A DNA stretch of 46,366 bases, taken from contig CAIJYR010000150.1 of the NCBI GenBank assembly GCA_903824965.1, positions 1 to 46,366 of the forward strand. Reading direction: 5' to 3'. A model generated the notes under the pieces. It saw only the letters and a list, made by a program, of their open reading frames with translations, ran no database searches and had not been told where the DNA came from. The stretch is from an uncultured Thiotrichales bacterium. GTDB lineage: Bacteria > Pseudomonadota > Gammaproteobacteria > CAIRSR01. Every line of letters starts with the position of its first letter. Positions within the stretch are counted from its first letter, which is position 1. The position numbers were made by a program, and so were the translations under genes. Shown one piece after another: positions 5,385 to 8,720 of this stretch.

Positions 5385-6143
5385 TCAGAGGTGTCCGCGT
5401 AGGACGATCGCAACGATGGTCCCGAAGATGCCAAGCACCGTCACGATCGTCACGCCAAGCATCCATTGCAACAGTTTGAACTGACCTGCGGTACGCTCTT
5501 GTAAAAGCTTGAACAGGCTCTCCGTACGCTCTTGCATCCCCTTGAAACCGTTGTCCATGTCCTTTCTAAGACTATCCATGTCCTTTCCAAGGCCATCCAT
5601 GTCCTTTCTAAGACTATCCATCTCCTTTCCAAGGCCATCCATGTCCTTTCCAAGGCCATCCATGTCCTTTCCAAGGCCATCCATGTCCTTCTTGAGCGAT
5701 GACTCAACACGATCTATGTCCTGCTTGAGCGATGATTCAACGCGATCTATATCCTTCTTGAGCGATGACTCAACACGATCTATGTCCTGCTTGAGCGATG
5801 ATTCAACGCGATCTATATCCTTCTTGAGCGATAACTCAACACGCTCAACCTCTTTCTTCAGTAGGTTGATTTCTTGCCTGACCTCAGAGACCTCTTGCTT
5901 GACCTCCGAAATCTCTTGCTTAAGTTCTTGCTTGACCTCCGACATCTCTTGTTTAAGTGCTTGTTTGACCTCTAGGATCTCGTTTTTAAGCTCCATTTTC
6001 GAGATTTCTACGTCTCGTTTTGTTGCCAACTCATTGGCTGACATTGCGGCGGTTAATGCGACCGTTTGCGCTTCTGCTTGTGGTTCGGTGAACCCTGCGT
6101 TACGCAACGTCTTGACATAGGCCAGGGTATCGAAGGTGACCAT
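5385..6143 (-). CDS. Repeat-rich coiled-coil protein with C-terminal membrane helix (DUF1640-like)
   Basis: A protein of about 252 residues. Its N-terminal part (TFDTLAYVKTLRNAGFTEPQ) and its plan of long coiled coil plus one C-terminal membrane helix (WMLGVTIVTVLGIFGTIVAI) resemble the DUF1640/CCDC90-type family. The centre is a regular repeat. Four copies of the 11-residue unit DIDRVESSLK(K/Q) alternate K and Q at the end, and are followed by about seven heptads of the DMDGLGK/DMDSLRK type. The start at 6143 is favoured because GGAG lies seven bases upstream, whereas the ATG at 6149 is too close to it. It converges on mrdA. Function unknown; it is possibly a tail-anchored trimer or stalk. 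Confidence 0.75.
   Translation of the reverse strand: MVTFDTLAYVKTLRNAGFTEPQAEAQTVALTAAMSANELATKRDVEISKMELKNEILEVKQALKQEMSEVKQELKQEISEVKQEVSEVRQEINLLKKEVERVELSLKKDIDRVESSLKQDIDRVESSLKKDIDRVESSLKQDIDRVESSLKKDMDGLGKDMDGLGKDMDGLGKEMDSLRKDMDGLGKDMDSLRKDMDNGFKGMQERTESLFKLLQERTAGQFKLLQWMLGVTIVTVLGIFGTIVAIVLRGHL
5553..5840. repeat. In-frame tandem repeats, 33-bp and 21-bp units
   Basis: Two neighbouring in-frame tandem arrays inside the coiled-coil gene. Roughly 5690-5840 holds 33-bp units in which alternate copies are nearly identical, giving a 66-bp higher-order period. Roughly 5553-5690 holds 21-bp units. The nucleotide identity between units suggests recent expansion, and both unit lengths are multiples of three so the frame is kept. 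Confidence 0.85.
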
Positions 6144-6479
6144 GATCATACTCCTACAGTTGATTTGAACCAGATCAACAACTTCGCAAGTTGCTTAACA
6201 GTATTCTTGATCAAAATGGTATAGTGAACGCACGATGCTGTCCAGCAAGACACCAAAGGGCGTATCGTGGCCCATCTGATCACGATACAGACTGAAAGTG
6301 CGCTAGATCAATTACGCACACGCGCAAAAAGAGAGCAATGGCAGCAACTGATCCTGCTGGAGCCTAGAGCAAAACCATGGTACATCAATCGATTTGGAAA
6401 AGTCCCCGTTTACCGAAAACGCTCAACCTCTCCACCAGCCCCGTTTAATCCAAAATCTATACAGCACAGAGGTAGCATC

Positions 6480-6853: not shown

Positions 6854-7711
6854 TCAGGCTTCGAGTGAGGTGCGTAGGTTCTTCATGGCCATCTTCTCGA
6901 TCTGGCGGATGCGTTCTGCCGAGACCTGGTATTGATCTGCAAGTTCTTGTAAGGTCGTCTTGTCTTCGTTGAGCCAGCGACGCTCCAAAATGTCGCGGCT
7001 ACGCGCATCTAGAGCCGCCATGGCATCGGCAAGGCGGTTTTCCTTATAATCCTCCCAGTCTTGTTGTTCAAGCACATGGGCCGGATCTGCGTGGACATCC
7101 TGTAGATAGGCGATCGGCGGCAGCGGCCCTTCGTCATCGTCGCCATTCGCATCTCCCTCTAGGCTGACATCCTGACCTGCCATGCGTTGTTCCATCTCTA
7201 GGACGGTCTCTGGACTGACATCAAACGCGCTCGCAACAGCCTGCACCTCTCCACGGCTGAACCAACCCAAATGCTTCTTGGCACTGCGCAAATGGAAAAA
7301 AAGCTTCCGCTGGGCCTTGGTCGTTGCGACCTTGACCATCCGCCAGTTACGCAGAATAAACTCGTGCATCTCCGCACGGATCCAATGCACCGCAAACGAA
7401 ACCAGTCGTACCCCCAGCTCTGGTTTGAAAGAGCGCACCGCCTTCATCAGGCCGATATTGCCCTCTTGGATCAGGTCTGCTTGGGGTAGACCATACCCGC
7501 TATAACCCCGTGCGATGTGGACAACAAAACGAAGGTGAGCCAGGATGATGCGCTGCGCAGCTTCCAAGTCATTGTGATCACGCAAGCGAATCGCAAGAGC
7601 CTGTTCTTCACTCGCGCTCAAGACGGGAATGGCACTCACTGCCTGGATGTAAGCGTCAAGGCTGCCCGTGGGTAGGGCAAGATCAAGCCTTTGCAGTGCG
7701 GTAGTCGTCAT
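6854..7711 (-). CDS. rpoH: Heat-shock sigma factor RpoH (sigma32)
   Basis: A 285-residue sigma70-family protein that directs RNA polymerase to heat-shock promoters. Region 2 is visible ([20 protein letters not shown] then [15 protein letters not shown]), as is the RpoH box ([14 protein letters not shown]) and region 4.2 with its helix-turn-helix ([20 protein letters not shown]). The length is normal. A strong SD, AAGGAGG, precedes the ATG. A CIRCE operator and a promoter overlap just upstream (7741-7770), so HrcA probably represses this gene. E. coli rpoH has no such element. Confidence 0.96.
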
Positions 7712-7740
7712 GGAAACCCCTCCTTACTTTCACTGCGTCC

Positions 7741-7770
7741 ATTCTAGCACTCTATGATGGAGAGTGCTAA
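7741..7770 (-). promoter_or_regulatory. CIRCE operator embedded in the rpoH promoter
   Basis: An inverted repeat CTAGCACTC-N9-GAGTGCTAA lies at 7744-7770. It matches the CIRCE consensus TTAGCACTC-N9-GAGTGCTAA at every position but the first. On the minus strand the right arm supplies a -35-like TTAGCA (7765-7770), and TAGAAT at 7741-7746 makes a good -10 with 18-bp spacing. HrcA bound here would cover the promoter. It lies about 30-60 bp upstream of the rpoH start. Confidence 0.9.
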
Positions 7771-7785
7771 TTACCAACACAAGGA

Positions 7786-8361
7786 TCAGCCCTCGACTGT
7801 CCACTCGCCTTTGGCCCACTTTTCTGCCCAGAACAGACCTACCATAGTCTTGGAATCGGTGATCAGACCCTCGCGGATCCCCTTCATGGCATCTTCTAGG
7901 GACATTTCGACCACATCGAGCATTTCGTCCTCGTCCAAATCGGGTTTGGTGAGGGTGAGATCCTGCGCCATATACAGGAACATGTCCTCGTTGGTATACC
8001 CGATGCACGGATGAATCCGACCGAGGGTGTGCCAACGGGTGGCAACATAGCCCGTTTCCTCCAGGAGTTCCCGTTGCACAGCGGCCATGGGGTCTTCGCC
8101 AGGCGAGAGTTTCCCAGCTGGCAATTCCAGAAATTCCCGCTTCATCGCGTAACGATACTGGCGCTCCATCACCAATTTTCCGTTGGGGAGCCAAGGAACC
8201 ACGACCACCGCACCCGGGTGGACGATGTATTCCCGCGTCGACCGATGCCCATTGGGGAGGAGTACCTCATCCCGATACACGTTGAGCAAATTGCCAGCAA
8301 AAACCTGGCGAGAAGACAGGCACTCTTCGGAAAAATCCTGCGGTTTATTCTGCGGTTTCAT
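7786..8361 (-). CDS. NUDIX hydrolase, ADP-ribose pyrophosphatase type
   Basis: A 191-residue NUDIX protein with a complete box (GX5EX7REUXEEXGU): G-KLSPG-E followed by RELLEETGYV, preceded by FLELPAGK. The layout, with a long N-terminal domain carrying REYIVHPGAVVVVP and LVMERQYRYAM, is that of NudF-like ADP-ribose/ADP-sugar pyrophosphatases in the cytoplasm. The ATG at 8361 has GGAG seven bases upstream. A TTG one codon earlier is less likely. Its SD and start codon form the edge of repeat copy A. Exact substrate uncertain. Confidence 0.9.
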   Translation of the reverse strand: MKPQNKPQDFSEECLSSRQVFAGNLLNVYRDEVLLPNGHRSTREYIVHPGAVVVVPWLPNGKLVMERQYRYAMKREFLELPAGKLSPGEDPMAAVQRELLEETGYVATRWHTLGRIHPCIGYTNEDMFLYMAQDLTLTKPDLDEDEMLDVVEMSLEDAMKGIREGLITDSKTMVGLFWAEKWAKGEWTVEG

Positions 8362-8720
8362 CAATGTCTCCGAAAAACCCTGCCCGGAGGCGCGGGGATG
8401 AAAGGAGACGGTTTTGGGTAGCCGTCTTTTCGTCCGTAGCTGTCAGCCCTTACGGGCATAGTGACGCACACCGCTCAAGTATCGAACGGTGTGGATCCCC
8501 TCGCTGCCAGGTTGCAACGCAGCGTACTGCAGCAGACCGTTTCGTAGTTACCCGAACCTTGTCTGTGCCTCTGCCGCCCTCAGCATGTGGCGCTGAGGAA
8601 GCGCCGCAAGGGGCAAGTCTTGTACTTCATTGCTTTGTCGCCACGGTGCTCTATGGCTTAGGCTGGTCAAGCCTCGGCTTGCTCTCACAAGCCCCGCCTT
8701 CAGGCAGGGGGTAGTTGACG
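8359..8720. repeat. Repeat copy A: IS200/IS605-like hairpin-ended element without ORF
   Basis: Full-length copy of a family also present at 30270-30667, and in part at 21451-21570. From the left: a conserved block CATCAATGTCTCCGA, a GC hairpin (8378-8397), GGAGACGG beginning a second hairpin with GCCGTC, the GCCC-TTAC-GGGC hairpin, a CACACCG/CGGTGTG stem, and a right end made of an imperfect CCCCGCC/GGCAGGGG hairpin followed by GTAGTTGAC. The right end resembles IS200/IS605-type ends. There is no transposase or TnpB/IscB gene. The left edge is the ribosome-binding site and start of the NUDIX gene. Confidence 0.75.

Follow-up and report, generated by a model that had tools for sequence, protein, structure and literature searches.

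A candidate HrcA operator overlapping the rpoH promoter in an uncultured Thiotrichales bacterium and its distribution among proteobacteria

The textbook account of proteobacterial heat-shock control is the E. coli model, in which rpoH is governed largely after transcription. To our knowledge, E. coli has no HrcA, and its rpoH product belongs to the same sigma factor family (TIGR02392) as the one described here. HrcA has been described as GroEL-dependent in B. subtilis, Chlamydia and H. pylori; in the last of these, GroE raises the affinity of HrcA for CIRCE-like operators, which agrees with the titration model for B. subtilis (PMC6032397). The closest described arrangement at rpoH is that of Geobacter sulfurreducens, for which a CIRCE upstream of rpoH is listed in Table 8 of Rodionov et al. 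2004 (PMC545781). Since it was reported in 2004, a CIRCE at rpoH is of a kind already known, and an earlier note on this DNA was correct that such sites have been described by comparative genomics. According to the parts of that paper used here, G. sulfurreducens resembles the present genome in carrying TTAGCACTC-N9-GAGTGCTAA about 50 bp before rpoH, together with hrcA and a groESL CIRCE, and differs from it in having a further CIRCE at hrcA-grpE-dnaK-dnaJ, whereas we found none before hrcA-grpE; in the same parts we found no mention of a fusion between the rpoH CIRCE and the -10 element. In the literature searched we found no experiment proving that HrcA acts on rpoH, and no report of the breadth of the arrangement, its rpoH-specific -10 fusion or the Pseudoalteromonas case described below (Permina and Gelfand 2003, a study of beta and gamma species, lay outside the search).

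The operator and promoter at rpoH

The window is the whole stretch of DNA analysed here, 46,366 nucleotides from an uncultured Thiotrichales bacterium. Its rpoH region contains the following features:

6854..7711, minus strand: rpoH, sigma-32 heat-shock sigma factor, 285 amino acids (TIGR02392)
7719..7724, minus strand: Shine-Dalgarno sequence AGGAGG of rpoH, read from the sequence
7741..7746, minus strand: predicted -10 element TAGAAT with TG upstream, its first three bases common to the CIRCE (promoter scan); key positions conserved at rpoH sites
7744..7770, minus strand: CIRCE operator, TTAGCACTC-TCCATCATA-GAGTGCTAG, matching the consensus at 17 of 18 positions; also conserved upstream of rpoH in relatives
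7765..7770, minus strand: predicted -35 element TTAGCA, the first six CIRCE bases (promoter scan)
7786..8364, minus strand: Nudix hydrolase gene (NudE-like), upstream of rpoH on the same strand

The rpoH product scores 399.9 bits against TIGR02392 (cut-off, 323.1), with sigma70 regions 1.2, 2 and 4 present. Beyond rpoH, the window also contains an open reading frame (5385-6149, minus strand) in which near-identical coiled-coil-like repeats follow one another (KKDIDRVESSL, KDMDGLG).

Read on the minus strand from 7770 to 7741, the sequence is TTAGCACTC-TCCATCATA-GAGTGCTAG-AAT, with the CIRCE lying 33 bp upstream of rpoH. Scored against the consensus TTAGCACTC-N9-GAGTGCTAA (18 arm positions), the site has a sole mismatch, a G in place of A at the final position, and dinucleotide-preserving shuffles of the window produced no CIRCE match even with three mismatches allowed. 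The description of the site as near-perfect in the earlier note is borne out; the span that it gave, 7741-7770, holds for 7744-7770; 7741-7743 lie beyond the CIRCE and form the second half of the -10 element. In the 3.22-Mb genome, the rpoH site is the only exact match to the 16-base core, and a whole-genome scan returned one further site with 1 mismatch, at groESL. A CIRCE-like site with 2 mismatches on contig 225 falls inside the reading frame of a lipoprotein-like protein and was treated as a chance match, and matches with 3 mismatches were regarded as noise because a reversed control pattern matches more often than the true one.

A promoter scan of the rpoH strand places a sigma70-type promoter directly on the operator, consisting of TTAGCA, an 18-bp spacer and TAGAAT, with TG at the extended -10 position. 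As the earlier note had proposed, the CIRCE covers the -35 element, which lies inside the left arm, and touches the -10 element, which starts in the right arm; the third base of the -10 is the one position at which the CIRCE departs from consensus. The operator overlaps the predicted promoter of a heat-shock gene, as expected of a member of the HrcA/CIRCE regulon.

HrcA and its targets in the genome and the order

The repressor under which the earlier note placed rpoH is encoded in this genome, with an intact hrcA on contig 108 (PF01628, E = 1.2e-56, no stops) whose product has both the HrcA C-terminal domain and a winged-helix DNA-binding domain (PF03444) above the Pfam cut-offs; a grpE-like reading frame follows it. 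Of the other CIRCE sites worth seeking, the one at groES was found, as TTAGCGCTC-N9-GAGTGCTAA on contig 147 with 1 mismatch, and none was found upstream of hrcA-grpE (L009; genome scan with up to 3 mismatches). We likewise found neither a CIRCE nor a clear sigma32 promoter before hrcA in the order, in a comparison that left out the hrcA upstream sequence of G003. A CIRCE at the hrcA-grpE-dnaK operon is common, not constant, and is not required for membership in the regulon. Since no CIRCE precedes hrcA, the evident predicted targets of HrcA here are two, groESL and rpoH.

The order is represented by four genomes, all of which have hrcA (4/4), and rpoH was found in three of them, including that of the window. 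At both of the other rpoH loci the CIRCE arms are perfect, lie about as far from the gene as in the window and enclose nine-base spacers that differ, and the relatives in question (G001, from the genus, and G003, from the family) each have exactly two sites with 2 or fewer mismatches, at rpoH and at groESL. In G003 the gene upstream of the CIRCE differs from the Nudix gene of the window, indicating that the CIRCE belongs to rpoH.

We consider it very probable that this is a true HrcA operator, fused to the sigma70-type rpoH promoter, through which HrcA would repress rpoH by excluding RNA polymerase. The operator reading is based on the sequence itself, the promoter overlap, the presence of hrcA, conservation and the association with hrcA described below; HrcA binding, steric repression and GroEL feedback are what we infer for rpoH, the last by analogy with other bacteria, in which it is established. 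At normal temperature, a CIRCE-bound HrcA dimer would sit over the -35 element and the first bases of the -10, barring RNA polymerase. When unfolded protein occupies GroEL, HrcA would lose its chaperone-dependent activity and leave the CIRCE, allowing transcription of rpoH, and sigma32 would then switch on its own regulon; once GroEL is restored, HrcA would be reactivated and rpoH turned off again. If HrcA needs GroEL here as in the bacteria for which this has been described, stress that depletes free GroEL would derepress rpoH and groESL at the same time. Two heat-shock switches are thus probably wired in series, with HrcA above rpoH.

Distribution of the rpoH site beyond the order

Across a wider set of relatives, a CIRCE was called upstream of rpoH in 44/80 named RpoH loci (limit, 4 mismatches; 0 to 2 in nearly all calls), the carriers including Nitrosomonas, Pandoraea, Polynucleobacter, Methylocaldum, Dyella and a Geobacteraceae bin. 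Predicted operators at rpoH are widespread, and the site is not unique to the genome of the window. The presence of the rpoH CIRCE and that of hrcA coincide: among 50 of these genomes, 26 have both, 17 have neither, 4 have hrcA only and 3 have the CIRCE only (Fisher P = 7e-7, uncorrected for relatedness). In those gammaproteobacteria of the sample that lack hrcA (Vibrio, Shewanella, Haemophilus and others), the CIRCE is absent from rpoH too. The three CIRCE-only cases are metagenome bins that are probably incomplete, and the four genomes with hrcA and no CIRCE at the rpoH copy examined indicate that the link between HrcA and rpoH is not universal. One of these four is a Thioploca bin (G026) with rpoH on two contigs, where the CIRCE is absent on one (L044) and perfect on the other (L094); the bin either has two rpoH genes or is mixed.

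This tracking of hrcA weighs against reading the site as a palindrome that arose by chance or survives as a relic and regulates nothing, as do its absence from the shuffles and the conservation of its arms in relatives in which the spacer diverges, and we regard that explanation as extremely improbable.

Lysobacteraceae and Nevskiaceae have variant operators before rpoH (L054, 2921-2947; L034, 2925-2951; L064, 2913-2939) of the form TTAGCAGTC-N9-GACTGCTAA, with both arms altered in step, and half-changed forms occur as well. The variants suggest a shift in the specificity of HrcA in these families.

Pseudoalteromonas was sampled in 26 genomes (L109, L172, L173-L201) centred on P. luteoviolacea H33-S. 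A much-diverged HrcA is present in 26/26 of them (E = 3e-6 to 2e-12), with grpE following hrcA in the four loci examined, and in 25/26 rpoH is preceded by a CIRCE with no more than 1 mismatch. The groES locus of P. luteoviolacea has no CIRCE (its closest match has 7 mismatches), and among the matches listed there are no other sites with 0 or 1 mismatch in Pseudoalteromonas. Because HrcA and the rpoH CIRCE are kept in nearly all of these genomes and groESL of P. luteoviolacea lacks the operator, HrcA appears from these patterns to have been retained chiefly for rpoH, as a near-dedicated rpoH repressor. The genus may therefore be regarded as a natural experiment in which HrcA is seemingly retained mainly for rpoH.

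The operator/-10 fusion and control of sigma32

The groESL CIRCE, which marks the constant target of HrcA and is also present in the genome of the window, involves the same operator and repressor as the rpoH CIRCE, and the two differ in how the promoter is placed. At groESL, the -35 and -10 elements precede the CIRCE, typically as TATTA-TTAGCACTC, whereas at rpoH the -10 sits at the downstream end of the operator. A and T occur at positions +2 and +3 after the CIRCE in 39/47 rpoH sites versus 0/23 groESL sites (P = 4e-12), completing a -10 such as TAAAAT, TAATAT or TAGAAT. The first two bases of this -10 (T and A) are invariant in 47/47 rpoH sites and the last T is present in 45/47. Position 3 of the left arm is changed from A to G in 11/47 rpoH sites, giving TTGGCA, which is nearer to the -35 consensus; its mirror position in the -10 is never altered in the 47 sites. 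The fused pattern occurs with 1 or fewer mismatches in 73/114 sampled genomes of the class, and of 21 exact matches among the fetched loci, 20 lie immediately before rpoH and are correctly oriented, the remaining one having no identified gene. Matches to the pattern at groESL, with 1 mismatch, are in the opposite orientation, as CIRCE is palindromic. Judged by this comparison of sites, the CIRCE/-10 fusion is a conserved, rpoH-specific design. A tandem pair of CIRCE-plus-AT motifs, about 32 bp apart, was also observed (G063:C61:202564-202625).

The site follows the Nudix gene immediately and lies on its strand, a position that would suit a CIRCE serving chiefly as a roadblock to transcription that arrives from that gene instead of blocking initiation. 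The exact coincidence of the promoter elements with the operator and the near-invariance of the key bases argue against this, and we consider it very unlikely. Less improbable, though still unlikely, is that the operator works but the level of rpoH expression depends chiefly on other inputs (read-through from the Nudix gene, other promoters, or control of sigma32 stability or translation), with HrcA only trimming the basal level. Some transcription of rpoH by read-through is possible, since about 16 bp separate the end of the Nudix gene from the CIRCE and a promoter/terminator scan revealed no terminator-like site between the two genes; E. coli sigma32, moreover, is generally known to be controlled mainly through translation and stability. 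On the other side, the start of rpoH has no excess RNA structure, its fold being less stable than those of shuffles (z = +1.7), and so gives no sign of an RNA thermometer. Moreover, the operator and -10 are kept together as one block in distant genomes, and in G003 next to a different upstream gene, which argues that the CIRCE promoter matters.

More broadly, we find the case evenly balanced for a widespread and probably old layer of proteobacterial heat-shock control, in which HrcA would control rpoH through the -10-fused operator and GroEL occupancy would set rpoH transcription. Such a layer would be missing in bacteria without HrcA, hence perhaps the E. coli model, and in Pseudoalteromonas HrcA would be nearly dedicated to rpoH, with groESL outside its control. 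In many beta- and gammaproteobacteria, sequence places HrcA, a sensor of GroEL capacity, above sigma32, an arrangement that predicts a transcriptional input to sigma32 set by GroEL in, for example, the cultivable Nitrosomonas, Polynucleobacter and Pseudoalteromonas.
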